Source: Clostridia bacterium (lineage in GTDB: Bacteria; Bacillota; Clostridia; Oscillospirales; Acutalibacteraceae). From it: DNA of 59,734 nucleotides. The notes beneath the pieces were generated by a model. The model saw only the letters and a list, made by a program, of their open reading frames with translations. It made no database searches and had not been told where the DNA came from. This document shows, piece by piece, positions 37,214-55,352 of this stretch (position 1 is its first letter; each line of letters opens with the position of its first letter). The translations under genes and the position numbers were made by a program. The DNA lies in assembly GCA_017465505.1 (NCBI GenBank), contig JAFTWB010000001.1, positions 1 through 59,734 of the forward strand. Reading direction: 5' to 3'.

Positions 37214-37257
37214 TGTGTTAATAATAATTGTATAGTTTGGTGTATTTGTACTTACTA

Positions 37258-37440: not shown

Positions 37441-37459
37441 TAGATTCCTCCTTTCTGTG

Positions 37460-37705: not shown

Positions 37706-37792
37706 AATAAAGTCTCCTTTAAGTTAATTGTTGATGTTGTGGCAGAAGAACTGATAAATCAGTTCTTCTGCTGTAATATTTCGGGGTGTTGC

Positions 37793-38438: not shown

Positions 38439-38593
38439 TGAATAACCTCCTTTCTATGTAATGAAGCATTTAATCATAACGATTGTTCAAGTTGATTTCT
38501 TGCTTTGGTTGTATATTACCTCCGAAATGCAACAAAATCAAGAAAATACGATGCAACATAATTTGAAATATAGTTATATGCAACATTTCGTGC

Positions 38594-38622
38594 TTGACGA
38601 GCTAAATATAGTAGTATATAAT
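38594..38622 (+). promoter_or_regulatory. Promoter of the 38680 regulator
   Basis: TTGACG (38594-38599), 17 bp, TATAAT (38617-38622). Confidence 0.7.
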
Positions 38623-38679
38623 AGTTTTATAGACACAAAATTATACTGACAATCATTACTTAAATCGGAGGGAATCCTG

Positions 38680-39273
38680 ATGAATACTAGTAAAAAAGGA
38701 TTTTTAGAACGAGTAAAGACCAAGGAACGAGATTACTCTAAATCAGAAAAAAAGATATGCAGTGAAAAATTAAAAGCTTTTTATGACCTGTGTAATACAG
38801 CTAAGGGTATAGAAAACAACATATTAGGTAGCCGAATTAAGTTTATTCGCAAATCAAAAAACGTAAAAATTACTACACTTGCTGATAAATGCTACGTCGA
38901 TAGAAGCACGATATATCGAATAGAAAACGGGGAAAATAAAACTTTGCCTTGGTTTGATACAATTTCAAAAATTGTTTTTGCTTTGGACTATGATATAGAT
39001 AGTTTTGTTATGTTTCCCGATGATAATGAAAAGTGGAAGAGAATTCTGCGAGCAAGTAATCCAGTTTCAGATAGCTTTATTGAAGAAGTGCAATTACCAA
39101 CAGAATGCGAACTTAACAATATAAAAGCGGAAATATTCAAGAAGCTTGATGCCGATTATGTCTATTACGAAGAAAACGGAAAGAAAATAATTATTTCTGA
39201 TAAAAATATAGAATTGTTAAGGATAAACATTTACAATGCGTTTGAAACATTAGAATACATTTTGAAAAAATAA
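38680..39273 (+). CDS. XRE-family transcriptional regulator
   Basis: 197 residues. A lysine-rich N terminus, then the HTH near residues 50-105 (LGSRIKFIRKSKNVKITTLADKC, VDRSTIYRIENGENK) and a C-terminal domain of about 90 residues without recognised motifs. It is divergent from the block of small minus-strand genes, a common place for the element's control protein. GGAGGG before the ATG; ended by a perfect terminator. Confidence 0.8.
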   Translation: MNTSKKGFLERVKTKERDYSKSEKKICSEKLKAFYDLCNTAKGIENNILGSRIKFIRKSKNVKITTLADKCYVDRSTIYRIENGENKTLPWFDTISKIVFALDYDIDSFVMFPDDNEKWKRILRASNPVSDSFIEEVQLPTECELNNIKAEIFKKLDADYVYYEENGKKIIISDKNIELLRINIYNAFETLEYILKK

Positions 39274-39284
39274 ACGAGCATAAG

Positions 39285-39316
39285 AAAAAACCGTAGCAAA
39301 TTTGCTACGGTTTTTT
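39285..39316 (+). terminator. Terminator of the 38680 regulator
   Basis: Perfect 16-bp palindrome AAAAAACCGTAGC.../...GCTACGGTTTTTT; symmetrical, so active in both directions. Confidence 0.9.
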
Positions 39317-39321
39317 CTCTG

Positions 39322-39483
39322 TCAATCTGCGTTTAATACATCATCAGCTACTCCTGTGTAGTCTATATTATTATTTTCGTCTGGCGTTTTAGTTGTATCA
39401 CGAATTGGAATAACTTTGTCTTTTATTTCTTCAAATATATTTCTGTTTCTGAGTTTTTGTAGGTTCTCTGATTTGGTAATCAT
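39322..39483 (-). CDS. Small acidic protein coupled to the ArdC-like gene
   Basis: 53 residues (MITKSENLQKLRNRNIFEEI at the start, acidic tail DDVLNAD). The ATG overlaps the stop of the upstream ardC-like gene as ATGA, with GGAGGA 6 nt upstream. Unknown; the coupling suggests a partner of the ArdC-like protein. Confidence 0.6.
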   Translation of the reverse strand: MITKSENLQKLRNRNIFEEIKDKVIPIRDTTKTPDENNNIDYTGVADDVLNAD

Positions 39484-40475
39484 CTGCATTCCTCCTGACT
39501 TATGTATTCATTTACTTGTTCTTTTTCTAATTCTCTTAAACATTCCAAAATTAACTCACAAGCCTTTTCTGCTTTTGCAGAGGCAGAGATAATCTCGGAT
39601 GGTCTATCTTTCAGATATGAAGACCAACTATGAATGTAGGCAACACTATTATCAGGTGTTTCTTCATCATCTGGTATATGAAGCTCTGAACATAATATCT
39701 CTGCTGAAATCTCTGCTATCAATTCCTCTTTACTGTAATTTTGCATTGCTTCTTTAACATCTGAAACACTGTCTTTTTCAAATCTTCCTAAAAACATTCC
39801 TGTGCTGTGTGCCATTTCGTGAGCAATAGTATGTATATAGTTGTATATTGAAATAAAATTAGATATATCAGGTACTCTGATTTTCATATCGTGAGAAAAA
39901 TATGCTTGTGTGCCATCTTTAATAATCTCGATTTCAATTCCGTATTTTTTGCAATAGTAGTTAAATAAACGGTTAAACTTATCTAAACTCAGGCGCATTT
40001 GTTCTGTTGCTTCTTCGTGAGTATAGTGTTTAAACTCAAACCGTGAGGGAAGATTTTCTCCATTGTCTTTTCTGACAACATCTTCACGACTATAAACGTG
40101 GTAGTATTTCAAAAACCCTTTTTTAATTTCGTTGCCGTTCTTGTCTAATTTTGGTTCGCCTGTTTCTTCATCAAGAACCGACCTAGTGTTGTAATAGCAA
40201 ACTATATTACCCTTTGCACCTTTTCTAATTTGGTATTCGGTAGCACCCTTTTTTTGGTTCATTTCCTGAACCATATTAAATGTTAGGTACTCGTTATTTT
40301 CTAATAATATGCGGTTAATTCCCCTGTAAGGAAGTTGTGTATCATAACTGTATGCTCTGTCGGGAGCGCCCTCTGCAAAAGGCTTAACCCACCTGAAAAC
40401 TTCCCCTGCTTTTTCTGCTTCGTCCATTCTTTTCATAATGGTATCTGTGATTATTTTTGCTACGCTTATTTTCAT
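39480..40475 (-). CDS. ArdC-like antirestriction protein (ssDNA-binding plus zincin domain)
   Basis: 331 residues. Residues 1-130 match the ArdC N-terminal ssDNA-binding domain (PYRGINRILLE, KKGATEYQIRKGAKG). Residues 165-300 hold a zincin-like metallopeptidase domain with HEMAH (H219, E220, H223) and E255 as probable third ligand, in AHEMAHSTG and EELIAEISAE. ArdC proteins are carried by conjugative plasmids and elements and protect incoming single-stranded DNA; RP4-type ArdC blocks some restriction enzymes. A helper of transfer here. Own start at 40475. Confidence 0.88.
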   Translation of the reverse strand: MKISVAKIITDTIMKRMDEAEKAGEVFRWVKPFAEGAPDRAYSYDTQLPYRGINRILLENNEYLTFNMVQEMNQKKGATEYQIRKGAKGNIVCYYNTRSVLDEETGEPKLDKNGNEIKKGFLKYYHVYSREDVVRKDNGENLPSRFEFKHYTHEEATEQMRLSLDKFNRLFNYYCKKYGIEIEIIKDGTQAYFSHDMKIRVPDISNFISIYNYIHTIAHEMAHSTGMFLGRFEKDSVSDVKEAMQNYSKEELIAEISAEILCSELHIPDDEETPDNSVAYIHSWSSYLKDRPSEIISASAKAEKACELILECLRELEKEQVNEYISQEECR

Positions 40476-40491
40476 AATTCATTCTCCTTTG

Positions 40492-40698
40492 CTATTTCAT
40501 TATATTTTCGGCTGTAATTATTGCTGAATATGCATCTTTTAACGCTACATAGGTATCTCCGTATTCTGAAATTGCATTGTTTTTCTCAATGATACCGATG
40601 ACATATTCCAATTCTTTTTTACTCCAAGTATTTCTGCTTTCAAGGTCTGTTGCAAATGCTTCATTGGCTTTCTTATTGATTTCTACTGATAAAATCAT
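40492..40698 (-). CDS. Small element protein, unknown (68 aa)
   Basis: 68 residues from the ATG at 40698 (GGAG upstream), helical: KKANEAFATDLESRNTWSKK, YVIGIIEKNNAISEYGDTYV. No family recognised. Preceded by the first complete copy of the terminator/leader module. Confidence 0.55.
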   Translation of the reverse strand: MILSVEINKKANEAFATDLESRNTWSKKELEYVIGIIEKNNAISEYGDTYVALKDAYSAIITAENIMK

Positions 40699-40713
40699 AA
40701 CTTTTTCTCCTTC

Positions 40714-40874
40714 TCGCACTCAGGGATTTTAGAGTTTAAATAGTATAGATTACCCAAGCGATTTCGCTGTTAAGCAATATAAGAATGACAGATGAAAAAC
40801 AAAAAGATTTTCCCTCATAACTTTTTTGCAAAAAAATAAACCGTAGCTCTAAAATAGAACTACGGTTTTTGAAT
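40714..40874 (-). repeat. Terminator/leader module, copy 1
   Basis: 161 bp about 95% identical to 41142-41303. Read on the minus strand it holds a hairpin terminator (CCGTAG/CTACGG) with a T run, a middle stretch with GTCATTCTTATATTGC, the palindrome AGCGAAATCGCT, and the leader of the next gene. Confidence 0.85.
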
Positions 40875-40885
40875 AGTGGAGTAGT

Positions 40886-41125
40886 TTAGCAAAGGCAATA
40901 CCAGGCAATCCAGTTTTCTAACGAACACACTATGTCTAAATAGAAATCTTTTGTGTCTGTATTGTTTTTTTGCTTTTCTATTTTTTCTTTTTCAAAGCGA
41001 TACAAATCTGCTTCACACTCTTCTTTAAAGTCTTCGTTATAATGAAATTCTCCTTTTATTTCCGCTATATCTTTGTTCAATAAAATTATTAGTTCATCTT
41101 TTTCCATTTCAAATACGCTCTTCAT
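40886..41125 (-). CDS. Small acidic element protein, unknown (79 aa)
   Basis: 79 residues from the ATG at 41125 (AAGGAG upstream): helical and charged (EMEKDELIILLNKDIAEIKG, EDFKEECEADLYRFEKEKIE). No family recognised. Its leader is module copy 2, and it ends at module copy 1. Confidence 0.55.
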   Translation of the reverse strand: MKSVFEMEKDELIILLNKDIAEIKGEFHYNEDFKEECEADLYRFEKEKIEKQKNNTDTKDFYLDIVCSLENWIAWYCLC

Positions 41126-41141
41126 AGCGATAACTCCTTTT

Positions 41142-41303
41142 TCGCACTCAGGGATTTTAGAGCTTAAATAGTATAGATTACCCAAGCGATTTCGCCGTTA
41201 AGCAATATAAGAATGTCAGATGAAAAACAAAAAAGATTTTCCCTCATAACTTTTTTGCAAAAAATAAACCGTAGCTCTAAAAATAGAACTACGATTTTTG
41301 AAT
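41142..41303 (-). repeat. Terminator/leader module, copy 2
   Basis: Direct repeat of 40714-40874, a few substitutions and single-base indels. Precedes the 41125 gene in the same way as copy 1 precedes the 40698 gene. Confidence 0.85.
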
Positions 41304-41352
41304 GATAGGGAAATGTTTCGGAACCTCTCTCATTCATATTAAGTATGATGTT

Positions 41353-41636
41353 TTATGTATCAGAATTGAATTCGCTATAAAGCATCTCTGCCAATGCAAC
41401 CATCATCGCCTTATACTTGCTCTTGTTCTGGAAGAGTGAAGCATAGGGTCTGAGTTGCAAGTGTTCTCAAATCTTTTCCATTCTTTCGATTTTGTCCTAT
41501 GAATGAAATTCATAAAAGTGCCAACATACAAACCATATTCGGGACTATATGTATCCGTGGTTTTGGTATAACCACCTTTGGCAGATACCAAAGAAGCTTC
41601 AATATCTTCTTCAAATCGTCTTTCGTTTGTAATTAT
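41353..41636 (-). pseudogene. Remnant: HsdR-like start joined to another gene's end
   Basis: On the minus strand, behind a good ribosome binding site, codons from 41636 read I-I-T-N-E-R-R-F-E-E-D-I-E-A-S-L and on to a FIHRTKSKEWKRFE segment, the typical beginning of a type I restriction subunit HsdR. The usual ATG is ATA here. After about 55 codons the similarity stops, and a different frame takes over (RPYASLFQNKSKYKAMMVAL, ending EFNSDT and TAA at 41353), which looks like the C-terminal end of an unrelated gene. This is what a deletion between two genes leaves behind. Confidence 0.6.
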
Positions 41637-42243
41637 ATTGTTTTCTCCTTCGTTTGCTTGCTATGTTTTTGCTGCAATCAATGAGATTAAATGATATGCC
41701 TTTATGTTTATATTTATCTAACTTTTTAGCAGTATTATTATAATCCTTAATTTCAAAAAACACTTTATATTCGTACAAATTAAAGTTTTTGTCAAAAAGT
41801 CCAATAGAAATATTTTCAATAGAACTATATATAAATGTAGAAAAAGGTGCTCCTTTTATTTCACACAAATCCCCCGCTTTAATTGGTACATTTTCCAAAG
41901 CATCATATTCTGTATCGTTAATTTTTATATACCCAATCATACAAACAGATTCACTTTCGTTTGACAGGTAAAGTGTATCTAAGTGAAATACGATTTGCCC
42001 TTCCTGGTCTGCGTTTGAATAATCGTCATCAATCCATATACTCTTTCGGGGTCTCTCTGTGTCCAAAGTAACAAGTGGTTCAACAATAAAGAATGGTCTG
42101 ATTTTTTCTAGATATTCTTTCTTTGATTTTTTGTTTTCAGCTTTAATTGTCCAAATAACACCAAGTAGTGTTAATCCGCCTCCGATTATAGCGGATATTA
42201 AAGGAACAAAAACATCAATCCAAAATGAATAACATTCAGTCAC
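41611..42243 (-). CDS. Single-pass membrane protein with beta-rich domain, unknown
   Basis: 210 residues. N-terminal membrane helix (FVPLISAIIGGGLTLLGVIW), a basic segment, then a beta-sandwich-like domain (IVFHLDTLYLSNESESVCMI, VFFEIKDYNNTAK) and a very basic C terminus (ASKRRRKQYNYKRK). The GTG start at 42243 has GAGGTG upstream and overlaps the previous stop (GTGA). Family not recognised. Together with the small gene upstream it may be a cargo pair; membrane anchoring plus a globular domain is common in effector or sensor proteins of mobile elements. Confidence 0.6.
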   Translation of the reverse strand: MTECYSFWIDVFVPLISAIIGGGLTLLGVIWTIKAENKKSKKEYLEKIRPFFIVEPLVTLDTERPRKSIWIDDDYSNADQEGQIVFHLDTLYLSNESESVCMIGYIKINDTEYDALENVPIKAGDLCEIKGAPFSTFIYSSIENISIGLFDKNFNLYEYKVFFEIKDYNNTAKKLDKYKHKGISFNLIDCSKNIASKRRRKQYNYKRKTI

Positions 42244-42476
42244 AGGCTCACCTCGTTTATATATGCCTCAATTTCGTGTGCTTCTTCTTGGCACAACTCG
42301 TCCCACACGTCACCTAATTCAGCGTCAGAAATGTTATGCTCATCTTGAAAAGCTTTATGTCTAAGTAGCCAATACTTTTCTCTGATTTTTCGTAAGCCAT
42401 CATCTTTTATTCGGCTTATCTCCTCTTGGTTTAATATTTTCTTATATTGCTCTTCCTCTGAAAGATAATTTATCAT
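42240..42476 (-). CDS. Small acidic element protein, unknown (78 aa)
   Basis: 78 residues, mostly helical and acidic (KILNQEEISRIKDDGLRKIR, ISDAELGDVWDELCQEE). GAGGTAAAG before the ATG. Overlaps the start of the membrane protein at 42243, so the two are coupled. No family recognised. Confidence 0.55.
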   Translation of the reverse strand: MINYLSEEEQYKKILNQEEISRIKDDGLRKIREKYWLLRHKAFQDEHNISDAELGDVWDELCQEEAHEIEAYINEVSL

Positions 42477-42487
42477 ACTTTACCTCG

Positions 42488-42650
42488 TTAAATGATATTA
42501 TGCTTTTTCATATAGTCAATTAAAACTAAATAGTATTCATCTGATGCTATTTGTCGGTAAGGAGCTTCAATTTTATCAACACTATCCAAAAAACTTTTAA
42601 CGCTTTGACACTTTGTTGAACTTCGTAAATGTTCTTAAAATGTTCTTCTC
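42488..42650 (-). pseudogene. Decayed small gene with a frameshift
   Basis: On the minus strand one frame reads E-E-H-F-K-N-I-Y-E-V-Q-Q-S-V-K-A-L-K and, after an A/T run near 42595, a second frame continues K-S-F-L-D-S-V-D-K-I-E-A-P-Y-R-Q-I-A-S-D and ends DYMKKHNII. The join looks like a 1-nt indel in a homopolymer. A GGAG sits upstream but no ATG. Low-confidence remnant. Confidence 0.35.
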
Positions 42651-42796
42651 CTTTGCTTTTTTGTTGAATGTATTGCTTGTTAATTTTTTCATATACAACT
42701 ATACAAAATAATTATACAATTTGGACAAGGAAGTTTCAATATATATCAAAATATTTTTTGTTTATTGTAGTAATAAAATAATGTTTTATTATTGCG

Positions 42797-43062
42797 ACTG
42801 GACTGAACCAGTCGGTCGTTCCACTGTAATGCCTTGTGCGGCATTTTCGTTCCACTGGCGGTAAGCGTGCAACTGTCAGAAAGTTTCCGATAACCTGACA
42901 CTCCAAGTGTCATCAATAACCGCCCCAAGAAGTCTTTTTTCTGGGACTGGTTAATGCTGATGTGCATATACATCTTTAAGCGATATTTATAATAAAATGT
43001 GCTAATCGAACCCCTAAATTAACCTATGTAAAATTAAAAGCGACTGGTTAAGTCCAGTCGCC
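42797..43062. other. Highly structured non-coding block
   Basis: Two similar hairpins bracket the block: CGACTGG/CCAGTCG (42797-42816) and GCGACTGG/CCAGTCGC (43041-43062). Inside are AATGCC/GGCATT, TGACACT/AGTGTCA and a longer-range GGCGGT/ACCGCC pairing, plus the direct repeat CGTTCCACTG. The right hairpin, read on the minus strand, is followed by TTTTAATTTT and can end the DUF6291 transcript. The rest could be an RNA or a single-strand DNA signal. The 75-codon frame across it (42746-42973) is not supported as a gene. Confidence 0.55.
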
Positions 43063-43270
43063 TTATAACTTTGAATGCTTAGAGTTTTCTTTACCACATA
43101 TACAATTACTCCACCTTAAAGACCCTGCTGTGATTGTCAATGAAAAATGTCTATGTTCTTGCCAATGGTAATGTGTATGTAAATGTCTTTGTATATGATA
43201 TTGTCAATGTATATGGGGGAGTGTCTCTTGTATTGCATTCTATAAAATGCAATGCAATGTATAAATAGCA

Positions 43271-43768
43271 TTACATTGTATCTTCATAAGATGAGTGCAT
43301 TTCTTCCAGAGTTGCTTCCCATTTATAGTAATTGCAGTAGTCTATCAACTTTCGAAGTTCTTCATAATTTGCAATTCTGGTTCTTGTTTTAAGTTCTTCA
43401 TAATCTTTTGGCATATTGTTTATATTGCCTGTCATAACAAGCACACTGTCGCCTGGCATTTCTATTGTTCGTGTGTCCAGATTTTTTTCTTTGTCCCACC
43501 TTTTACGAGCTGCGTTTCGTCTTCTCTCTTTGCTCTCGTCCCACTTTTTGTTATTCCTATCAATTACATCAACTATTGCTCTGAACGAAATTCTCATTGC
43601 TCTATCATTTTCAAGTGCCTCAAAGTTCATTATGCCATCCTTTACATACTTAAAGATACAGTCAATCAGAATTCCTTTTTCGTGAAAATCAAGTTCTGAG
43701 AAGTATAATTCATCAAAAGAGGAATACAAAAGAAAGCTTTCCTTTTCATCTAAATCTTTAATACTCAT
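43271..43768 (-). CDS. DUF6291 domain protein (possibly truncated)
   Basis: 165 residues. N-terminal 90 residues match the DUF6291 pattern seen in phages and elements of Clostridia: FLLYSSFDELYFSELDFHEKG, IFKYVKDG, a conserved ALENDRAMRISFRAIVDVID, then a basic hinge ERRRNAARKRWDKEK. Such proteins are thought to be replication-related by location. After its stop, another frame continues with repetitive Ile/Asp codons (IDNIIYKDIYIHI), so the C-terminal half may have been cut off by a frameshift. AAGGAG before the ATG. Confidence 0.75.
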   Translation of the reverse strand: MSIKDLDEKESFLLYSSFDELYFSELDFHEKGILIDCIFKYVKDGIMNFEALENDRAMRISFRAIVDVIDRNNKKWDESKERRRNAARKRWDKEKNLDTRTIEMPGDSVLVMTGNINNMPKDYEELKTRTRIANYEELRKLIDYCNYYKWEATLEEMHSSYEDTM

Positions 43769-43800
43769 AATTTTCTCCTTTTTATTTATTATTGCTTTTC

Positions 43801-43910
43801 AGCTGTTTCGCTGTTTTGCGATATAAGTATGTAAGAAGTGATTTAGATTTAAGTTTTAGCTCATAGCTTTTTTGCAAAAAAAACATCCGTAGTTTTTACT
43901 ACGGACTTTT
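43801..43910 (-). repeat. Terminator/leader module, diverged copy 3
   Basis: Shares with copies 1 and 2 the CCGTAG/CTACGG hairpin, the stretch around GCTTTTTTGCAAAAAA, a TATAAGTATG word and GTTTCGCTG; sits between the 43913 and 43271 genes. Confidence 0.65.
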
Positions 43911-43912
43911 TC

Positions 43913-44245
43913 TTAGCAATGTTTTCTTTTTAAATCAAGGTAATCAGTTAATCGTTTATAGGTTTCTCTATCTATGTGTTTTAACTTGAAGCACAAATGA
44001 ACCATTGCCTCTGCATAATAGCACAATCTTTTTGTATAGTCAGAACAATAATGATTTTCGCCACAGCGTGTAACTGCATTATACATTTCATATAATGCAA
44101 TACTATTCTGTTTGTCTTTCTCCATTTTTATTCTTTCCAATTCAAGTTTAAATTTAGATTTTTCGTCTTTGCTAACCTTTTCTTTTTCCTCGGATTCAAG
44201 CCATTCAATATTGTTAATCGTTCCTTCACGATTTGTTTTGCTCAT
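43913..44245 (-). CDS. Small charged element protein, unknown (110 aa)
   Basis: 110 residues from the ATG at 44245 (GGAGGAAAATG upstream, overlapping the previous gene by 20 bp). A long charged helix (EEKEKVSKDEKSKFKLELER) and a C-terminal helical bundle with RLTDYLDLKRKHC. Could be an accessory protein of the relaxase module because it is coupled to the RHH-like gene next to it; unproven. Confidence 0.55.
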   Translation of the reverse strand: MSKTNREGTINNIEWLESEEKEKVSKDEKSKFKLELERIKMEKDKQNSIALYEMYNAVTRCGENHYCSDYTKRLCYYAEAMVHLCFKLKHIDRETYKRLTDYLDLKRKHC

Positions 44246-44510
44246 AACATTTTCCTCCTTCCAATAATTTCTTAATTTCATTTCTGCGAGTTTTCAGCGC
44301 TTGTCTTTCTTCTGCTGACATTTTACTTCCGTTTTTTGCAAGGGTGTTATTGATAGTTTCAATCTCTTTTTGCAGATTGGTAGTTGCTTCCGGAATTGTT
44401 TTGCTGATAATTTCTAAAAGCAATTCACTGATAGTTATTCCTTTGCTGACTGCCAACATTTTTATTTGTTTCTTATAATCTTCTGAACAATAAATTCTCA
44501 CATCTGTCAT
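44226..44510 (-). CDS. Ribbon-helix-helix-like relaxosome accessory candidate
   Basis: 94 residues: an N-terminal strand and helix VRIYCSEDYKKQIKMLAVSK, then GITISELLLEIISKT as the second helix (RHH pattern), followed by a coiled coil with basic residues. RHH proteins divergent from a relaxase often bind oriT and repress the mob genes. AAAGGAG before the ATG. Its leader (44521-44580) shares the ATAAGTATGACAGAT word with the other modules. Confidence 0.7.
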   Translation of the reverse strand: MTDVRIYCSEDYKKQIKMLAVSKGITISELLLEIISKTIPEATTNLQKEIETINNTLAKNGSKMSAEERQALKTRRNEIKKLLEGGKCYEQNKS

Positions 44511-44579
44511 CTTAAAAACTCCTTTCTGCGATTTTGCTTTTTCGCTTAATATAAGTATGACAGATAGATATAATAATCA

Positions 44580-44745
44580 AAAAATGTACTGCGCGAAAGT
44601 AAGAGAGAACCCTCGGAGAGCCCAAATGAATGACTGGAATTTATTACGGTTTATTCATAATATTGGGTAATTTATATTGTACGATACCGTCAATATAAAT
44701 GTAAAAAATCATCCTTTATATAAAGATAGAAAGGAGATTTTTTGT
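44580..44745 (+). other. Candidate oriT/control region before the relaxase
   Basis: Between the divergent RHH-like and mobV genes. Contains the inverted repeat ATTTATATTG (44670-44679) / CAATATAAAT (44691-44700) with an 11-bp loop, just ahead of the relaxase ribosome binding site, and a GC-richer block GAGAACCCTCGGAGAGCCC at about 44609-44627. MobV relaxases nick within oriT next to their gene, but no known nic sequence is evident to me. Confidence 0.4.
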
Positions 44746-46191
44746 ATGTATGATTTAACGTGTAGTTTTCATAAAGGCACATGTGCTTCCTCACATATTG
44801 GGCACAACAATAGAAGCATATTTGTTCCACACGCTGACCCTAAAAGAAAACATCTTAATGTTTGTTATATAGATATGACAGTAGAAGAAGCATATCACTA
44901 CCTGTTTGATGATGCTCTGGCAGAGTACAACAAAGGTAAAAAACCTTGTCGCCAAATCAAAGACTATTATCAACATATAATGGGACAGTATTTAAAAGGG
45001 GAAGCAAAACTTCAAGAAGCAATTTCATCAGGAGCTTCAAAAGCTGAACAGAGAAGAATAAAATCTAAATACCCTAAACCCTATTATGAGGTTATAATCA
45101 CAGTTGGAAATTGTGATACATACGATGGAATTTTTAAATGTGGTCAAGATAAAGAACAACTAGTTGTTGATGTGCTTGATGAATATATGTCAGACTTTCA
45201 AAAACGAAATTCTCACTTGTTTGTGTTTTCTGCCCATTTGCATAGAGATGAGGTTGGGAATGGAACTACAAGTAAAGGTGGAGTGCCACATATTCATCTG
45301 TGCTACATACCTTGGACAGATTTAGAGGGTAGAGGATTGCCAGTGAGAGTATCCGAAAATGGTGCTTTTAAACAACAGGGACTAACCTCTGGAAAACTTG
45401 GAGATATGGGGACAATTCATTTTCAGGAACAGGAACGAGAAGCTATAAAAGAAATTGCAAACGAGTATGGTATCAATATTGTTGATGGCAAACACTCCAA
45501 AAAGCATCTATCAAAAGAAGAATATATACTTCGTCAAGAGCAGGAAAAATCAAAAGCAAGTGCAGAACTTGTAGAACAAGAAGCAGGGGAGTTGTTGCAA
45601 CAACAAGATAATTTTATAGAATTCGTGCAGAACAGCAATTCAGCAGTTGCTTATTTAGAACATCGTGAAAATGCAGAGTTGAGAAAAACAGTTTCTGAGT
45701 ATGAAAAAATAAAACAGAGAAGCGAAATAGTGTTATCAGAAGTCTGGCAAGAATTCAATTCTGCTACATCTGAGTACTTTGAGCAATATCGTAGAAAAAA
45801 GAAATTGCTCTTTGATGAAATACAAAGAGCAAGAAAAGACGCAAACCACAGTAGGAAACGATTAAAAAGAATTTTGAATAACATTACATATAGTAATGAT
45901 TTCTTCATTATAAAGATGTTTAAATTAGTGTTTGCATTATTCATAGCGATAGAAACAAAATCATTAGAACAAGATGTTCAGGAATTGCAAAAGAAAAATC
46001 AAGAAATAAAAATACAAGCAAAACAAATAATCACTGATGGTCAAACAATCGGAGATAAACTACGAAATAAAGATTTAGATATGATAGAACAATCCTTGAT
46101 TGAATACGAAAAGCAATTAGAAAAGTCAATACAACAGATAAATGAAATCACCATATATAAAACTCATTCTAATGATACTCCCGAGCGATAA
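44746..46191 (+). CDS. mobV: MobV-family relaxase (plasmid recombination/mobilization)
   Basis: 481 residues. N-terminal motif I region with HIGHNNR (residues 17-23), then the metal-binding relaxase motif: SAHLHRDEVG (H164, H166, E169) and GGVPHIHLCYIPW (H182, H184), the HxDE...PHxH pattern of MobV/Pre enzymes. Residues 265-455 form a long coiled coil, as in MobM. It should nick oriT and lead single-stranded DNA into a helper's secretion system. The start is the ATG at 44746 (AAAGGAG), not the TTG at 44677. Confidence 0.88.
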   Translation: MYDLTCSFHKGTCASSHIGHNNRSIFVPHADPKRKHLNVCYIDMTVEEAYHYLFDDALAEYNKGKKPCRQIKDYYQHIMGQYLKGEAKLQEAISSGASKAEQRRIKSKYPKPYYEVIITVGNCDTYDGIFKCGQDKEQLVVDVLDEYMSDFQKRNSHLFVFSAHLHRDEVGNGTTSKGGVPHIHLCYIPWTDLEGRGLPVRVSENGAFKQQGLTSGKLGDMGTIHFQEQEREAIKEIANEYGINIVDGKHSKKHLSKEEYILRQEQEKSKASAELVEQEAGELLQQQDNFIEFVQNSNSAVAYLEHRENAELRKTVSEYEKIKQRSEIVLSEVWQEFNSATSEYFEQYRRKKKLLFDEIQRARKDANHSRKRLKRILNNITYSNDFFIIKMFKLVFALFIAIETKSLEQDVQELQKKNQEIKIQAKQIITDGQTIGDKLRNKDLDMIEQSLIEYEKQLEKSIQQINEITIYKTHSNDTPER

Positions 46192-46202
46192 GGACAAAGA
46201 AA

Positions 46203-46239
46203 AAACAGGACAAAATGCCGTAGGCAAAATGTCCTGTTT
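46203..46239. terminator. Bidirectional terminator, mobV / 46243 gene
   Basis: Stem AAACAGGACA/TGTCCTGTTT with an inner TGCC/GGCA helix between convergent genes. Confidence 0.8.
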
Positions 46240-46242
46240 AAT

Positions 46243-47412
46243 TTATTGATATTCTAAAATTACGCCACCCACATCAAATGTATAGGTTCTGATTTCATTT
46301 TCAGTAAGTGAAAATTCACACTCTACCTCAGAAAATGTTTGACTTACAAAATTATCACAAGTTAAAGGAGTATCCAAAATCAAAGTGAGATTTGCAACTA
46401 CTTCCGTTTCCTGTGTTACAGGGTCAAGTACTTGTGTTTCTAACTCTCCCATTTCAATAGTAAAATCCGAATGGTCATCAGTAGTTCCTTCAAGATAAAC
46501 GCTGAGCGAGCCCGTGCCACCACTTTCAGTCAGATTCTTAATATTGAAAATAAACTCATTGTTAGAAGCAAAGTTTGCAGGATAATATCCAGTGCCTTTC
46601 CAAGTGCCGTTAATGGTATCGACTGCACCTGCCTCTTTGGTTTCGTTTATATCAATAACTTTCCATATATTGTTTAAGTATTCAAACTTAACGGTGTCTG
46701 TGTATGTGAAATTAACAAAGCCTTCTTTGCCTTCATATTCATATACATTTGTGCAGACATAGCCACCTTCTGAGAATTCGCTTGATTTAGGATTGCTTAA
46801 AATGTCATCAGACAATTGCTTTACATCTGTGTTTTCTTCTGAATAAGTGTGATAGCAACTGACAGCGTCAAACTTGTTTTTAACCATAGGTGCCTCTATG
46901 GCTGTTGTGATACCGTGCATTGCAAAGAAAAGTCCAACAGAAACAAGGATGATTGCAATAGCAGAGCCAATCGCTATAAACTCTTTTTTATTATTAACAC
47001 AATAATAACGAATATCTGTAAAGTATGTATAAATAGTAAAGATAGCAGGACATACAATCAGCGCCAAAACTGCACCGAGGATGCCTACTGCTATGGAAAC
47101 GGCAACAGTTACTAAATCAAAAGGAAACGGAAGGAGAAACCAACCGAATATAGCACATCTGGATAATATATTCCAACCAAATTTTAAAAATTTTAATGGT
47201 GAAACCAACAATGCTGATATGATACCTAATACCCACAAAACCCCTGCAAAACCAAGAAAGTGAGTTCTCATTTCGGTCATTACTATAATAGGGGCAAAAG
47301 AAGTAATAATTGCAAAGAAAGCACAGAATGCTCTTATATAGTGCCAGGCACCAGCAGGTTGTTCATCAGAAATCACTTCTGTTTCCATTACTTGTGTTTT
47401 AAGCTCATTCAT
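46243..47412 (-). CDS. Multi-pass membrane protein with external beta domain, unknown
   Basis: 389 residues. Four or five membrane segments in residues 25-170 (FCAFFAIITSFAPIIVM; GFAGVLWVLGIISALLV; DLVTVAVSIAVGILGAVLAL; FIAIGSAIAIILVSVGLFFA), then two globular parts, one with YVCTNVYEYEGKEGFVNFTY and one with TINGTWKGTGYYP leading into a beta-rich lipocalin/Ig-like C terminus. Not recognised. 14 bp downstream of the zinc-ribbon gene at 47427 on the same strand, so a two-gene cargo unit. Function unknown. Confidence 0.65.
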   Translation of the reverse strand: MNELKTQVMETEVISDEQPAGAWHYIRAFCAFFAIITSFAPIIVMTEMRTHFLGFAGVLWVLGIISALLVSPLKFLKFGWNILSRCAIFGWFLLPFPFDLVTVAVSIAVGILGAVLALIVCPAIFTIYTYFTDIRYYCVNNKKEFIAIGSAIAIILVSVGLFFAMHGITTAIEAPMVKNKFDAVSCYHTYSEENTDVKQLSDDILSNPKSSEFSEGGYVCTNVYEYEGKEGFVNFTYTDTVKFEYLNNIWKVIDINETKEAGAVDTINGTWKGTGYYPANFASNNEFIFNIKNLTESGGTGSLSVYLEGTTDDHSDFTIEMGELETQVLDPVTQETEVVANLTLILDTPLTCDNFVSQTFSEVECEFSLTENEIRTYTFDVGGVILEYQ

Positions 47413-47426
47413 TCTGTATATCTCCT

Positions 47427-48137
47427 TTACTTGAACTTCTTAACTTTTGTTATAGGCAAATCAACTCCGACTTTTGTTTTAAATACTTCTAAAAGTCTTC
47501 TCATTTCTTTTTCAGCTGAATGAGCCTGTCGGATACCTTTTCCCCTTATGAAGAAACGTGCAATACAAGGTTTATATGTCATAACCTTTTCATCATTCAG
47601 ACGAACATCATATGTCAGAACTGCTGAAAACAAGCCTGTAACATCTTTCATACCAACTTGACAAAATTCTAATTTTGATACATCACGGGCAGAAAACATA
47701 TGATATTTGTCGTAAGAAAAGATTTTATTCATAGACTTCTCGTATTGCTTGACACTGTATTCTGAATTTGCAGTATGGAATTCAGTCATACTGAAATGAC
47801 CGTCAGGGGTAATGTAACAAAAACTAATCGGGAGTGCTTCCTCTCCTGTATATGTAGGATAGGTTGCCTTTTCTGCTAAGTAAGTGCAAAACATTTTTGC
47901 AATATCCACATCTTTGTATTTTTTCTTTGTTGCAGCTTTTAGATTGGCAACCTTTACTGAAAATCTCTGACCTTCTTGTTTAGCTTCGTTTTCGTATTTA
48001 CGGCTACATTCGCTACAACAACTTAAACTTAGATAAGTCAGGCCATCTCCGAATTGAAGTGTTCCTGCCTCACTTGAACCGAAAAATTTGTCCTGATACT
48101 CCTTGCCGCAAAACGGACATACTTTTGTTTTTGCCAT
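47427..48137 (-). CDS. Zinc-ribbon protein, unknown (236 aa)
   Basis: 236 residues. N-terminal zinc ribbon from CPFCGKEY and CCSECSRKY; the rest is a mixed alpha/beta domain with YKPCIARFFIRGKGIRQAHS near the C terminus. Not recognised. First gene of the pair with the membrane protein at 46243. Divergent from the HTH regulator at 48311, whose operators lie in its promoter region, so probably repressed by it. Confidence 0.65.
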   Translation of the reverse strand: MAKTKVCPFCGKEYQDKFFGSSEAGTLQFGDGLTYLSLSCCSECSRKYENEAKQEGQRFSVKVANLKAATKKKYKDVDIAKMFCTYLAEKATYPTYTGEEALPISFCYITPDGHFSMTEFHTANSEYSVKQYEKSMNKIFSYDKYHMFSARDVSKLEFCQVGMKDVTGLFSAVLTYDVRLNDEKVMTYKPCIARFFIRGKGIRQAHSAEKEMRRLLEVFKTKVGVDLPITKVKKFK

Positions 48138-48207
48138 AGAAACTTCCCTCTTTCTGTTATTTTTGAAAATATTGAGTTTTGAACTCCTATCAAGAAGAAT
48201 TATATCA

Positions 48208-48278
48208 CTTATAGGCGATAAAAGTCAATAAAACTATCGCTATAAGATATAAAATATATCACCTATGGGTAGTATAAT
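48208..48278. promoter_or_regulatory. Operator region between 47427 and 48311 genes
   Basis: Half-sites CTTATAGGCGATA (48208-48220) and TATCGCTATAAG (48235-48246) are near-perfect inverted copies; a third related site ATCACCTATGGGTAG (48259-48272) abuts the -10 TATAAT (48273-48278) of the HTH gene. Probable sites of the HTH protein encoded at 48311. Confidence 0.65.
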
Positions 48279-48310
48279 TTAATTATATTAAACTTTTTTA
48301 GGTGATTGCT

Positions 48311-48637
48311 ATGAGTGAAACTGCATTTCTCAAAGAAATGGGACAAAGAATTATGCTTCGCAGAAAATCTCTCCGTTTAACCCAAGAAGAACTTGCTGAA
48401 AAGATAGATGTTTCTACACAGATGATTTCAAATTTGGAGCTTGGCAAAAAAGCAATTCGCCCAGAAAACTTAGCAAAAGTGTGTGATGTTCTTGATGTTA
48501 GTGCAGATTATGTATTAACAGGGGTAAGTACAAAAAGTAGAGAAGTAAATACTATAACAGAAAAACTTATGGAATTATCAGAAGATGAACTGAAAATTAT
48601 TACCAGTATGGTTGAATATATGACAAACAAAAAGTAA
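48311..48637 (+). CDS. XRE-family (Cro/CI-like) repressor
   Basis: 108 residues. HTH in residues 8-62: MGQRIMLRRKSLRLTQEELA, then AEKIDVSTQMISNLELGKKAIRPENLAKV; C-terminal 45 residues form a short dimerisation helix. ATG at 48311 with AGGTG upstream. It likely controls the divergent 47427/46243 pair, itself, and perhaps the downstream cargo. Confidence 0.85.
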   Translation: MSETAFLKEMGQRIMLRRKSLRLTQEELAEKIDVSTQMISNLELGKKAIRPENLAKVCDVLDVSADYVLTGVSTKSREVNTITEKLMELSEDELKIITSMVEYMTNKK

Positions 48638-48770
48638 AAGGCATCCCTTATTAAGAGATGCCTTTGCTCTAAAAAGACGAGAAAAAAAGAATATAAAATA
48701 TCCACAATTGTTTGTATTGTGGGAATTTGAGAACTATCTATAATATTTATTGATGATAGGAGTGAATAAA

Positions 48771-49778
48771 ATGTCAAAAATCTTAAACTATGAGCGTAAT
48801 GAAACTTTAGCGACAGGGTTTGTTAGACCTAAAGTGACCTCTCTTTTTTTTGATAAAATATGGATACCTGAATCGTTATTAGATTCCTCATATGAATTTT
48901 ATGCCATTCCTAAGGACGTACTAATTGTTGAAAAGGAAGAATTAAAAATAACTAACTCAAGGTTTGAGAAACCGTCAGGCAAACATTTTCGAGAAGCACG
49001 CTATCGTAACATCAGCGATGAACGAGTGGGAGCGTTCTATGATTATATGGTTGGAAGAAATCACCCTTATAGATTAGGTGAATTTTATTTTCATCAAGCA
49101 ATGGCTAATAATGCATATGATCCTCTAGATGACCCCGAATTTATAAAATTCAAATACTCAAAAAATCGAAATCATGCTATTTTAGTTAGTACAGAAAGCT
49201 TTAACAGGAAGTATAAATTACATATTTCTCCAGTCTTTCATGATTTAACAGAATTCGAAAAACAAACTCAATCTTTAGATAATAAAGATATCTATGGAAA
49301 CGACATGTTAAGGTTTAAAATAAGAAAACCAAATACTTTTTTAAACAAAGATGCATTTTCGATATGCATACAAGACTTTCCAAGTATTAAGGAAGATGAA
49401 CTTTCGTGGGAGCAAGTGATGGACATCAGGAGCGATAAGAAAAGGATTCAAAAGTTAAAACGTTTTACTTCGTGGGCTAATAGAACATTTACAAATGAAT
49501 CTCCAGATGAGATAAGAGAACTGCTTGAAACGGAAATAGATGAGTATAAAAGAGTTTTGCGAGAACATGGCGTAAAAACGACAATCGGCTCTTTTTCAAC
49601 GATTGTTTCCAGTGCAAGTTCAATAGCTACCTTGCTAACTAGTCCAAATTTTGTTTTGCTACCGCTATTATCTGTGACATCGTTATCAATTAGTTTTGCA
49701 GTAAATACATATTTTTCTAGCTTAAAAAATCGTAACAATCCAATAGCATACTTATATGATATAACTGAAAACTTTTAA
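48771..49778 (+). CDS. Membrane-associated protein of unknown family (cargo)
   Basis: 335 residues from the ATG at 48771 (GGAGTGAA upstream). The first 270 residues are soluble, with charged helices (EIRELLETEIDEYKRVLREHG). A hydrophobic pair of segments lies near the C terminus (GSFSTIVSSASSIATLLTSP, NFVLLPLLSVTSLSISFAV). The N-terminal phrase with a duplicated LFFDKIWIPESL looks like proteins I associate with uncharacterised element-borne families, but I cannot name it. C-terminal membrane segments behind a globular domain recall membrane effectors of defence systems; that is only a suggestion. Confidence 0.6.
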   Translation: MSKILNYERNETLATGFVRPKVTSLFFDKIWIPESLLDSSYEFYAIPKDVLIVEKEELKITNSRFEKPSGKHFREARYRNISDERVGAFYDYMVGRNHPYRLGEFYFHQAMANNAYDPLDDPEFIKFKYSKNRNHAILVSTESFNRKYKLHISPVFHDLTEFEKQTQSLDNKDIYGNDMLRFKIRKPNTFLNKDAFSICIQDFPSIKEDELSWEQVMDIRSDKKRIQKLKRFTSWANRTFTNESPDEIRELLETEIDEYKRVLREHGVKTTIGSFSTIVSSASSIATLLTSPNFVLLPLLSVTSLSISFAVNTYFSSLKNRNNPIAYLYDITENF

Positions 49779-50216
49779 AGGACCAAGTTTATCAATTTGC
49801 TACAATACGATGCGAACGGAAAAGACAAGTCGTATAGCGATATTTGCTTATAAAGTTGCGGTCAAGCCACAATTAATATTTAAAGTTTTAAGCCATTTTA
49901 CCAATAAAAGTTAATAAATCAGTGAGGGCGTTTGCACTCATTTGACTTTGAGAAAGATACATCATTTTAGGGATTTAGGCCTATTATGTTCTAATATTAA
50001 TCCATTAACTTGTGGAAAATGAGCCCAAATGTATAGAAGTATAAAAATAGTCTTCTCCCTTAAATGAATAGTTACAATATGTTATGGACTTATGAACTAG
50101 AATTGATTTCAAAGAATGTGTATGATAAACTGAAATTGAGAATTTACTCAATATTTTTTATTGGTAAAAAGCTATATTCTATATTTGTATAGAGAATGTA
50201 ATCGAAGGTGATATTG
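49779..50216. other. Intergenic stretch, no gene seen
   Basis: 438 bp, AT-rich, frames short on both strands. Contains a small TTGAG/CTCAA hairpin near 50135-50150 and AT-rich promoter-like sequence before the 50217 gene. I see no conserved motif. Confidence 0.5.
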
Positions 50217-51128
50217 GTGAGCAATAGAAAAAAACAGAATAAAAAAGAAACACAAACTAACCTACAAGATTTTGATAGGGATATTGAAATTTTAAAGCTT
50301 AAAAAATATATTGAGAGAAGTAAAAGGATTACGGGATTAGTTGCTTTAGTGACAGCTATAGTTTCTGTATTTGCAACCGCCACAATTATAAATATAAACA
50401 TAGGTACCGAGAACAGACCATCGACTACTAACGAAGCATTAGTGCAAGCACAGGATTACTATTATTCTGAAAAATATTACGATGCATTAGCTTTATATCA
50501 AGAGTTTGCAAACGATTCAGAAATTGCATCTATAAATCTTGGATATATGTATTCAAAAGGATTAGGATGTACCCGAGATTACGAATTAGCTTGCGATTAT
50601 TACAAAAAAGCATATGTTTTAGGGTCAGATGAAGGATTAGAAAATTATTTGGCAATTAATTTTCTTTCTCCGAATGATATAGAATCGTGTTTAATTGCTC
50701 TAGAATATGGCGTTGAAGAAGGAAACTCTTCAGCTATAAAATATGCAGCTTTTTTACATACGGGAGAGCTTTTCGCAGTAAGCGATGATACAGTAAAAAA
50801 TTATGCTGAACAGTTTTTGGATAATGATGTATATCATCAAAAGGAAATATTAAGCAGTAAGATTGTTGAAACAAGTCAGCAAACACGATTACTTGAGCAA
50901 AATTATGTTCCAAAAAATACTGAATTTGAAGAGTATGTTCTTGTTGGAACAATTGCCAAAAAATATGTGTCACGCTATGTTACGAAGTTAGAACAAATTG
51001 ATGACCATACTTATTTACAAGTAGAAGTTCCCGTATATAGTTTGGTTATTTATGATAATTACACCATAAAAGGATTATCCTTTGAATATTCTGATTTTGT
51101 TTTTTCTGAAAAATATTATAAAATTTGA
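50217..51128 (+). CDS. Membrane-anchored Sel1-like repeat protein
   Basis: 303 residues. A charged N-terminal cytoplasmic stretch, a membrane helix near 40-60 (ITGLVALVTAIVSVFATATI), and then an external TPR/Sel1-like part: YYSEKYYDALALYQEF, IASINLGYMYSKGLGCTRDY and ACDYYKKAYVLGSDEG are two helix-turn-helix units. The C-terminal 90 residues are beta-rich. Start is probably GTG 50217 with GGTGAT upstream; GTG 50208 is an alternative. Last gene before attR; function unknown. Confidence 0.65.
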   Translation: MSNRKKQNKKETQTNLQDFDRDIEILKLKKYIERSKRITGLVALVTAIVSVFATATIININIGTENRPSTTNEALVQAQDYYYSEKYYDALALYQEFANDSEIASINLGYMYSKGLGCTRDYELACDYYKKAYVLGSDEGLENYLAINFLSPNDIESCLIALEYGVEEGNSSAIKYAAFLHTGELFAVSDDTVKNYAEQFLDNDVYHQKEILSSKIVETSQQTRLLEQNYVPKNTEFEEYVLVGTIAKKYVSRYVTKLEQIDDHTYLQVEVPVYSLVIYDNYTIKGLSFEYSDFVFSEKYYKI

Positions 51129-51365
51129 GCACTGATAGTCTAAGGGAAAACAACTGTTGTGTTGTTAGTTGCATATAGTTCTTATAATGAGTTAATATAA
51201 AAACAATAATAAAATATGCAGCAAAAATTCGCTCATATATTTTTTGTTATCTGTAGAAAATAAAATTTTCAACATTTTTTCTACATTAGATAAGGATAGA
51301 TAGGGACAAATAAGGATTTGGGATTTTAAAAACACTCAAAAAACACTGTTTTTTCGGGTAAAAAA

Positions 51366-51399
51366 GGCTATGAGGCAGAAAAAAAGATATGAGGAAGAA
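51366..51399 (-). promoter_or_regulatory. Candidate integrase arm-binding sites, right end
   Basis: GGCTATGAGGCAGAA (51366-51380) and GATATGAGGAAGAA (51386-51399) are the reverse complement of the CCTCATA-type words near attL; they sit 20 bp apart, 20-50 bp from attR. Confidence 0.45.
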
Positions 51400-51419
51400 A
51401 GAACCATGTTTTGAATAAG

Positions 51420-51483
51420 TGGGTAACAACCCCATGGTTGGTGCTACAGTTGCTTGCGCAGTTGCAGTTTATAATGCAATGAA
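51420..51483 (+). repeat. attR: 64-bp direct repeat, right end of mobile element
   Basis: Fragment of the original GGGtGRT gene end; continues ATGAATAAGTAA, which I read as the pre-insertion stop (51488-51490). Two mismatches to attL. Confidence 0.93.
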
Positions 51484-51492
51484 TAAGTAATT

Positions 51493-51625
51493 GTGCGTCC
51501 GAGGTTTGTTGCCTTTCGATTTTTGGGGCTCGAACACAAAATCGGTAAAGCCGATTTATCGGCTGTGCGATTTAGTTGAGAGCACTGAAAACTCGGAAGG
51601 CTAGCAACAAACAACGAGGCGTGAT
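51493..51625 (+). ncRNA. Structured 3' UTR element, copy 1
   Basis: 133 nt starting GTGCG directly after the native stop codon of the GGGtGRT gene. It folds into an outer stem GTTTGTTGC/GCAACAAAC, then GCCTTTCGA-TTTT/GAAAACTCGGAAGGC, an inner CTCGAAC/GTTGAG, AAATCG/CGATTT and a hairpin AGCCGA/TCGGCT. It is followed by the terminator at 51657. About 83% identical to 54342-54473 on the other strand. Insertion of the mobile element separated it from its gene. Confidence 0.65.
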
Positions 51626-51656
51626 ATACTAAACATTTTACCGCAAGGTAATATTT

Positions 51657-51682
51657 ATCCCCTGTCTGAAAAGGCAGGGGAT
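51657..51682 (+). terminator. Terminator behind the 3' UTR element copy 1
   Basis: Stem ATCCCCTGTC/GGCAGGGGAT, then TTTTTGCTTTT. Confidence 0.88.
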
Positions 51683-52380: not shown

Positions 52381-52514
52381 TTCGGAGCGTAGCGACCCGA
52401 AACATTTGCAACAGCAAATATATCACTTTGCTTAAGCAAAATATCACTCGCCGCAAGGCGAATATCACATCTGCACAGCAGATATATCACTGCAATATCG
52501 TCTTGCGATATTGC
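52381..52514 (+). repeat. Hairpin array C (linker ATATCAC) upstream of sigma gene
   Basis: Begins TTCGG-AGCGTAGCGAC-CCGAA, then ATTTGC/GCAAAT, TTTGC/GCAAA, TCGCC/GGCGA, ATCTGC/GCAGAT and the longest TGCAATATCG/CGATATTGCA; the last five are separated by ATATCAC. The order and the final CAATAT-type hairpin parallel array B, and both begin after ACTATAAATT. It would lie in the 5' leader of the sigma factor mRNA, its final stem ending 7 nt before the Shine-Dalgarno. Confidence 0.8.
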
Positions 52515-54224: not shown

Positions 54225-54260
54225 AATTAAAGACTTCCGGGAACACTTTATATAGCAAAA

Positions 54261-54292
54261 ACACCCCTGTACCTTTTCGGGTACAGGGGTGT
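54261..54292. terminator. Bidirectional terminator between anti-sigma and DegV genes
   Basis: Perfect 13-bp stem ACACCCCTGTACC/GGTACAGGGGTGT; TTTTGC on the minus side. Similar to the one behind the 3' UTR copy 1 (CCCCTGT/ACAGGGG core). Confidence 0.85.
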
Positions 54293-54317
54293 TGTGCGTT
54301 TTATTTTAAAACTCAGT

Positions 54318-54340
54318 GCACCAAGCCTCAGCGCACTCTT
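54318..54340 (-). repeat. 23-bp direct repeat flanking element copy 2
   Basis: Identical to 54455-54477, which encodes the last residues and stop of degV. It marks the far boundary of the 137-bp unit. Confidence 0.8.
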
Positions 54341-54341
54341 A

Positions 54342-54473
54342 ATCACGCTTCGCCGCTTGTTGCTGGTCTTTCGAGTTTTCCACGCTCTCAACTAAATCGC
54401 ACAGCCGATAAAATCGGCTTTACCGCTTTCGTGTTCGAGCTTGAAAATCGAAAGGCACCAAGCCTCAGCGCAC
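54342..54473 (-). ncRNA. Structured 3' UTR element, copy 2
   Basis: On the minus strand it begins GTGCGC, 3 nt before the degV stop codon (54467-54465), and continues with the same architecture as 51493-51625: outer stem GCTTGGTGC/GCAACAAGC, CTTTCGA-TTTTC/GAAAACTCGAAAG, then AAGCTCGAAC/GTTGAG, and AGCCGA/TCGGCT hairpin. The 23-bp word at 54455-54477 recurs at 54318-54340, bracketing the copy with an exact 137-bp offset. Followed by the terminator at 54261. Confidence 0.65.
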
Positions 54474-55352
54474 TCTTTCGTCGCCCCAGAAGAAGAGAGC
54501 TACTGTACCGGGACCTGTGTGAGAGCCGATGGTTGTGCCGATGTCGAAAATCTCAACCTTGCCCTTGAGCTTGGGGAAAGCCTCCTCAACAAGCTCTGCA
54601 ACCATTTCTGCGTCCTCAAAACAAGCAGAACAGCTGATAAAACATCTGTCGCTATAATCAAGGCCGCCCTGAGCGTGCTGCTTCATCATCTCAACAATCT
54701 CGGGGATAACTCTCTTTTTGCCGCGGATTTTTTCTCTGGCAATAAGCTTACCCTCGTCGTTAACGTTGAGCAAGGGGCAAATGCCCAGAACGCCGCCGAT
54801 AAAGCCCGAAGCCTTGGAAACTCTGCCGCCCTTTACAAAATATGTAAGGTCGGTGGTGAAAAACCAGTGGTGGAGCTTATTTTTGTTAGCCTCGGCAAAA
54901 TCACGAAGCTCCTCAATGCTCTTGCCCTCAGCCTTGAGCTCGGAGAGCTTTGCCATCATAAGTCCGTAGCCTGCGGAAGCACCGAGAGAGTCCACAAGGT
55001 AAAGCTTTCTCTCAGGAAACTCTTCTCTCATTGCCTCTGCAGCAAGACGTGCAGAGTTATATGTGCCTGAAAGACCTGTGGAAAGGCTGACGTGAAGAAT
55101 ATCCTTACCGCTTTTGAGAATCTCACGGAAATAATCCTTGAACTCGTCCTGGTTAATCTGGCTTGTGGATGTTTCTGCTCCATCCTCCATTGCCTTATAA
55201 AAATCCTTGTAGGAAACAGTTTTGCCTAAATCATCGGGGTAAGTTTTGCCGTTAAGTCTGAAGCTGGAAAAAATATAGCTTACATCAAGAGCAGCAAGCT
55301 TTTCTGCACTAAGGTCTGCTGTGGAACAACAACTGATAACAAATTCGCTCAT
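54465..55352 (-). CDS. DegV family fatty-acid-binding protein
   Basis: 295 residues. DegV fold: SEFVISCCSTADLS at the start, TSQINQDEF, HVSLSTGLSGTYNSA, the VDSLGASAGYGLMM motif and KGGRVSKASGFIGG. DegV proteins hold one fatty acid, and some (FakB) deliver fatty acids to the FakA kinase for phospholipid synthesis; no fakA is nearby. Its last codons and stop lie in the start of the repeat element. GGAGGA before the ATG. Confidence 0.92.
   Translation of the reverse strand: MSEFVISCCSTADLSAEKLAALDVSYIFSSFRLNGKTYPDDLGKTVSYKDFYKAMEDGAETSTSQINQDEFKDYFREILKSGKDILHVSLSTGLSGTYNSARLAAEAMREEFPERKLYLVDSLGASAGYGLMMAKLSELKAEGKSIEELRDFAEANKNKLHHWFFTTDLTYFVKGGRVSKASGFIGGVLGICPLLNVNDEGKLIAREKIRGKKRVIPEIVEMMKQHAQGGLDYSDRCFISCSACFEDAEMVAELVEEAFPKLKGKVEIFDIGTTIGSHTGPGTVALFFWGDERVR

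Follow-up and report, generated by a model that had tools for sequence, protein, structure and literature searches.

The window (the whole 59,734-nt stretch of DNA analysed here) is contig C7 of a 1.9 Mb genome in 30 contigs, about 84% complete, and it contains two copies of a hairpin-forming element. Copy 1 (51493..51625, + strand; matched at 51492-51628 by covariance model R1, described below) starts 2 nt after the stop codon of a duplicated 3′ tail of a GGGtGRT gene. This tail with its stop occupies 51420..51490 (+), directly before copy 1, the duplicate itself being 64 nt long (51420-51483); the complete GGGtGRT gene lies far away at 33048-34049. The sequence-only reading had placed copy 1 after the native stop of the gene: a stop is indeed directly upstream, but only the last codons of the gene accompany it. 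Gene and tail are separated by ~17.4 kb (34050-51420), an interval that includes genes for a tyrosine integrase (34333-35871, −) and an ArdC-type protein (39480-40475, −) and that has the look of an integrated mobile element whose attachment site is the GGGtGRT 3′ end. At the contig edge, positions 1-53 (−) carry a truncated group II intron match (group-II-D1D4-3), of which only the beginning is present.

Copy 2 (54339..54474, −) follows degV (54465..55352, −), and its foot shares sequence with the final two codons and the stop of that gene. It had been proposed that the element supplies degV's last codons. The overlap is there, but the degV ortholog of a relative (G026) ends in the same ERVR residues with no intact element behind it; copy 2 therefore overlaps the native degV end and adds no protein. 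Directly behind copy 2, at 54318..54340 (−), lies a 23-nt segment that repeats its start (54455-54477) in direct orientation. On its sequence, and because tandem arrays of the element were found elsewhere, we read this repeat as the probable remnant of a second, tandem copy.

The two copies are 84% identical over query positions 1-133 (E 1.5e-33; match 54342-54473, −), so the claimed ~83% identical second copy of a 133-nt element is real. The structural observations of that reading also stood: both copies fold as the same kind of nested hairpin; a pair of the outer stem is T-A in copy 1 and C-G in copy 2, whose outer stem also has one mismatch; and terminator-like hairpins follow both copies, at 51657..51682 (+) and 54260..54293 (−). 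Against 200 shuffles the fold z-score is −6.8 for copy 1 and only −2.3 for copy 2, for which four of the 200 shuffles fold equally well; a third copy, on contig C28 of the same genome, scores −4.7 against its shuffles. Six copies are found in this genome (model R2, E up to 0.01), those outside C7 being on C28, on C23 and in a tandem pair on C11. Directly behind two of its own copies sits a repeat of another type, with TTAGCC...GGTGGGCAATTCCG units (L002, 1630-1700; L004, 1430-1500).

Structure and range of the family

The element is one long hairpin of ~130-152 nt with near-fixed ends: TAA, GAA or TGT precedes a GCGCC-type foot, and GGCGTGAYA forms the other end. The foot has about five pairs, GCGCC with GGCGU, co-changed in some copies to GAGCC/GGCUU or GCGCU/AGCGU. 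Above it are a conserved CGAG/CGAG internal loop, which in our structural model we read as tandem G-A pairs, and a two-nucleotide bulge. Next along the hairpin come a helix of 4-5 pairs, a GNA/GGA-type loop and a GC/GC step whose 3′ arm bears a 4-nt bulge; a longer helix and then further small loops lead up to the tip. The internal loops are conserved, the tip is very variable, and the bulges sit mostly on one arm.

Among 32 copies of one subfamily, 24 of the 30 pairs are doubly compensated, which bears out the earlier proposal of a structured, covarying element. The covariation score of these 32 copies reached 0.538, whereas shuffling gave 0.184 (sd 0.012) and sliding no more than 0.095; as the copies are kin, neither this score nor the G-U and A-C counts that follow are probabilities. 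On this pattern of compensation the hairpin is strongly supported. When 90 copies were folded with G-U and A-C scored alike, 192 G-U pairs were obtained versus 82 A-C mismatches, and copy by copy G-U was in excess in 56, A-C in nine, and the two were equal in 25. Since G-U exceeds A-C, the constrained strand is the one with its 5′ foot beside the gene end, and these counts argue that the conserved strand is constrained as RNA or as single-stranded DNA.

Pairing was also followed among copies at orthologous sites. The GGGtGRT site gave four doubly changed pairs and four with a broken cell, a symporter-gene site three and none, the rpoA site four and one, and one set of rplW copies 12 and five; a second rplW pair of copies had no change in any pair.

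Model R1 was built from five copies and R2, the better model, from 32. With R1, 44 of 150 genus genomes gave a match (E up to 0.05), but five of nine genomes that it had not reported matched R2; R1 thus underestimates, and its count is superseded by the 88 of 161 genus genomes matched by R2 at E up to 0.001. The other 73 of the 161 lack an R2 match, so the element is dispensable. In an order-wide sample R2 matched three of 345 genomes, all in this genus (one of 162 genera): the repeat family is genus-specific. Deeper scoring of 24 chosen genomes (up to 140 candidates scored in each) found matches in 20, the richest carrying 28 copies.

In the named sequence collection, 55 stretches fitted an exact pattern for both ends. 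Of these, 47 lay in contigs whose titles read Ruminococcus, Clostridia, Clostridiales, Oscillospiraceae, Eubacteriales or simply bacterium, ruminants being the source of many; the other eight were in unrelated high-GC contigs and serve as a chance background. R1 matched all 47 of the former and none (0/8) of the latter. Chance duplication of the element is ruled out by family size, covariation and specificity; further covarying copies, expected of a real element, were found, and the suggestion of a mobile repeat is supported as regards dispersal. Viral contigs gave no match to the two-ended pattern (a single exact pattern), leaving carriage by phages unsupported. Neither the elements of the window nor those in 22 scanned loci were matched by any Rfam 15 model, and no description of the family was found among titles and the starts of abstracts, a coverage outside which many subscription papers lie.

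Placement at gene ends and spread

Placement was assessed on 104 R1 matches, of which five were dropped (four reverse-strand matches to the palindrome and one cut by a contig end); the remaining 99 represent 90 distinct copies, with at least one place still counted twice (L037/L101). A stop within 40 nt upstream was accepted if its frame ran to 90 codons or more, the minimum being 35 for frames cut by the contig. Such a stop precedes 38 of the 90 copies, and 37 of the 38 start within 5 nt of it, in keeping with the 3′-end preference that had been suggested; the one that does not lies behind a truncated copy. L056, also among the 38, is probably behind a repeated tRNA tail, not a gene end: a tRNA-Thr tail precedes the element there, away from the tRNA gene. 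The distance from the stop to the first letters of the element varies from −5 to +3 nt.

An automatic sort of the 82 distinct left flanks gave 35 stops, 13 tandem copies, four terminators and 30 others, the last including by eye gene tails too short to pass the frame test, several terminators, two tRNA ends and some outside all of these groups. ARAGORN calls confirm tRNA-Thr genes ending 4 nt upstream of the element in L087 and L093. A tRNA-Ala/tRNA-Ile pair stops 4 nt short of it in two G183 loci, the gap being ~92 nt in a G187 locus; the four such loci read in each of these two genomes look alike. A tRNA-Ala/tRNA-Ile pair is typical of rRNA spacers. At L093 (3207-3810) the tRNA-Thr 3′ end is repeated together with the element, in two identical copies. 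The C11 tandem pair of the source genome occupies an antisense position between two genes.

Random positions, which the sequence-only reading took as a sign of chance duplication, were checked for and are not the pattern seen. Placement between a stop codon and a terminator, which that reading saw for both copies, held in part: many are behind stops, but others are behind a terminator, a tRNA or another copy, or are antisense. Its suggestion of a regulator target common to the two genes of the window was not supported, the upstream genes of the family being mixed, many of them housekeeping, with tRNAs in addition. Matches among 19 scanned upstream proteins include GroEL, ProRS, RpoA, EF-P, DnaJ, fructose-bisphosphate aldolase, glutamate dehydrogenase, Era, ValRS, GrpE and L23, and a match to PEP carboxykinase that is below its cut-off. 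The element lies directly behind rplW in 10 of 30 rplW loci, in some cases cut or shortened; two more show apparent shorter remnants, and at many others the position is taken by small hairpins unrelated to it. Whether or not the element intervenes, rplB stays the operon neighbour of rplW.

The closest kin of a copy is often in its own genome: this was so for 33 of 71 copies, a number that includes tandem neighbours and one doubly counted place, versus a mean of 2.1 and a maximum of 10 with shuffled labels. One tandem array has 3.1 copies of a 147-nt unit with 97% matches. At proS, degV, DUF4340, pheA and grpE, copies of different species are only 42-63% alike, each having 75-96% kin at other genes. 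Because distant subfamilies thus occur at the same gene ends in different species, some ends were probably reached independently more than once, or the element was replaced there. Copies that share the GGGtGRT, symporter-gene or rpoA site, and most of those at rplW, are 87-100% alike, as would fit inheritance; rplW copy L042 is an exception at 63%. The letter three before the foot co-varies with the letter after GTGA (TAA...T in 32 and GAA...C in 29 of 77 copies), a co-change that marks two main subfamilies.

The left flank is A/T-rich. Among 44 flank pairs there was no consistent target-site duplication, and no word recurred at a fixed offset in more than six. Five-letter words common to both flanks numbered 24, versus a permuted mean of 6.6 and maximum of 18, and for four-letter words one offset reached six of the 44, versus a permuted maximum of four. 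By eye these words, which passed the filter, mostly belong to the beginning of a following or decayed tandem copy (e.g. AGAA), so the excess is not read as target-site duplication. The one comparison of filled and empty sites, at GGGtGRT, is compatible with a TAAT duplication, though it does not prove one.

At <200 bp the element is too short for a transposase and has no autonomous transposase gene inside. A crude pattern for the Y1 motif found none in ~1.0 Mb of element loci (overlaps included), and in G020, where two 5′-end motifs lie 1.3 kb apart, the interval has ordinary-looking frames and copies of the element, with no transposase by eye. Lone ends numbered 29 of 112 five-prime and four of 86 three-prime, but many of the 29 are by eye full copies whose 3′ end was missed, and six loci among them had been fetched by the 5′ motif; about eight lone five-prime ends versus one three-prime end are left after correction, and we build nothing on the excess. 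Arrays ending in a 5′-only copy were seen at L030, L061, L062, L090, L194, L200, L217 and L242; 3′-only copies seem rarer in this partly biased sampling.

Comparison with known repeats and RNAs

The nearest likeness is to REP sequences, multi-copy palindromes that lie for the most part downstream of coding regions and are plausibly transcribed, according to the sections of that account used here (PMC3733652). For REPs, ribosome stalling has been reported where they lie within 15 nt of a stop codon, and so has a barrier to exoribonucleases, in the part of the source consulted (PMC12306157). The present element shares the palindromic form, the copy number, the gene-end location and the closeness to stop codons. 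It differs in length (~130-152 nt, versus 20-40 bp for REP) and in its ends, which are [TG]AA or TGT plus a GCGCC-type foot and GTGAYA in place of the GTAG or CGTC tag of REP (PMC3733652, same sections); CGTC occurs only in the GCGTCC-type feet of some copies. Another difference from REP is that the arms of the element vary from subfamily to subfamily yet still pair.

In size, non-autonomy and long stem-loop form the element is like ERIC, Correia/NEMIS, RUP and YPAL, which are ~100-200 bp, non-autonomous, and transcribed into long stem-loops (PMC2229807, in part). Most such elements have a terminal TA and target-site duplications, which are not consistent here, and tight placement at stop codons or tRNA ends, as in our element, is not described in the portion of that paper drawn on. 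The foot of the element, checked as a terminal inverted repeat, pairs over only ~5 bp and changes between copies. The element thus misses defining features of both groups, the size and tag of REP and the target duplication of ERIC.

Gut-1 RNA (RF01706) is present in the window (52415-52492, −) as a row of short hairpins with GTGATAT behind each one, a motif that also ends many copies of the element, and a sub-threshold Gut-1 match adjoins an element in L022. The Gut-1 model, however, is 77 nt with short hairpins, and RF01706 matches no element in the window or the 22 loci. The link through the GTGATAT tail is not a general one: in 47 genus contigs, hairpins before GTGATAT are no commoner (2/81) than before permuted words (24/883). 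Among 3161 candidate RNAs of the human microbiome, 250 are palindromic and are suggested by the authors to be terminators or REPs (PMC8040213); the palindromic examples named in the text of that paper, on which the comparison was made with the candidate tables aside, are mostly or wholly from Bacteroidetes, and overlap is possible. An intrinsic terminator was rejected: the conserved 3′ end is GTGAYA with no T run, separate terminators follow both window copies, and the element sits between rplW and rplB within an operon.

Origin and possible role

We favour, at a little better than even odds (roughly 0.55), the interpretation that these are genus-specific palindromic repeats, non-autonomous and of the broad REP/ERIC kind, kept as structured 3′-end RNA. 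The copies have spread both within and between genomes and are located chiefly at gene 3′ ends. Structure, strand, placement and spread stand on observation; beyond these we infer that the element would be transcribed with the upstream gene, its RNA folding directly behind the stop codon as REP sequences do. By parallel with REP, the folded RNA would most likely block 3′ exonucleases, touch the terminating ribosome, or both, altering the level of the upstream message, and genomes would tolerate, and perhaps profit from, the element as a mobile 3′ end. Where a copy begins just past a terminator, as several do, the upstream mRNA should already have ended, which counts against a role in mRNA; such copies and the antisense pair on C11 speak against a purely mRNA-level role.

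These last copies fit the main rival, which places the signal in DNA: the hairpin would be the single-stranded DNA signal of a non-autonomous transposon of the IS200/IS605 or RAYT kind, with Y1 supplied in trans and structure kept for moving. One folded strand would be inserted behind a short A/T-rich target, hence no target-site duplication. The conservation of one strand, the near-fixed ends, the tandem copies, and an A/T-rich left flank mostly ending in TAA or GAA with its co-changing letter after GTGA all agree with this, as does the lack of a consistent duplication. Yet pairing is mended also among copies at one orthologous site, which a transposon signal leaves unexplained unless the restored pairs were made by gene conversion; the Y1 motif is absent, by the crude pattern, from the ~1.0 Mb of element loci; and a fixed target word does not explain the variable distance to the stop codon. 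We consider this account doubtful as a replacement for the RNA reading, and it can hold alongside an RNA role. Gene conversion between copies could likewise keep the arms complementary, and what looks like repeated arrival at a gene could instead be one copy replacing another. A rather improbable proposal is an addressed mobile element that homes in on the ends of transcribed genes, whether stop codon, tRNA 3′ end or terminator. It would sense where RNA or translation ends, arrive with no target-site duplication and reside there as structured RNA, different subfamilies having reached the same gene ends independently in different species.

A classical inverted-repeat MITE (ERIC-like), with a DDE transposase, a TA target duplication, and placement and structure as by-products, would account for the size, palindromic form and intergenic spread, and for the TA on both sides of many TAA-type copies; it is a poor candidate, however, given GAA-type copies (29 of 77) without flanking TA, the failure of any word to recur at a fixed offset in more than six of 44 flank pairs, and an A/C versus G/U asymmetry not expected of a double-strand signal. 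The conserved internal loops and strong covariation would suit a cis-regulatory RNA controlling functionally linked genes, which is nevertheless very unlikely: the copies are behind genes and not before them, their presence at a given gene varies between species with no conserved regulon seen, and the upstream genes span L23, RpoA, GroEL, transporters, unknown proteins and tRNAs. Placement directly behind stops, similar length, a kept structure with a variable tip, and bulges mostly on one arm recall attC recombination sites, whose end boxes are GTTRRRY and RYYYAAC. These boxes are absent from the conserved ends of the element, and the rplW-rplB neighbourhood is kept with or without it, which makes an attC-like site extremely improbable.

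Returning to the palindromic-repeat interpretation, we regard the structure as well supported and the family, judged from its copies, as a REP/ERIC-type repeat that matches neither definition. It is a large, strongly covarying RNA-like family without a match in Rfam 15, in a genus seen mostly in ruminant-gut assemblies. The element is far longer than REP yet equally near to stop codons, and it has probably reached the same genes several times over. Comparing natural genome pairs in which only one partner carries it at a given gene makes it testable why palindromic repeats gather behind stops, and the family as a whole offers a natural test of what gene-end hairpins do.
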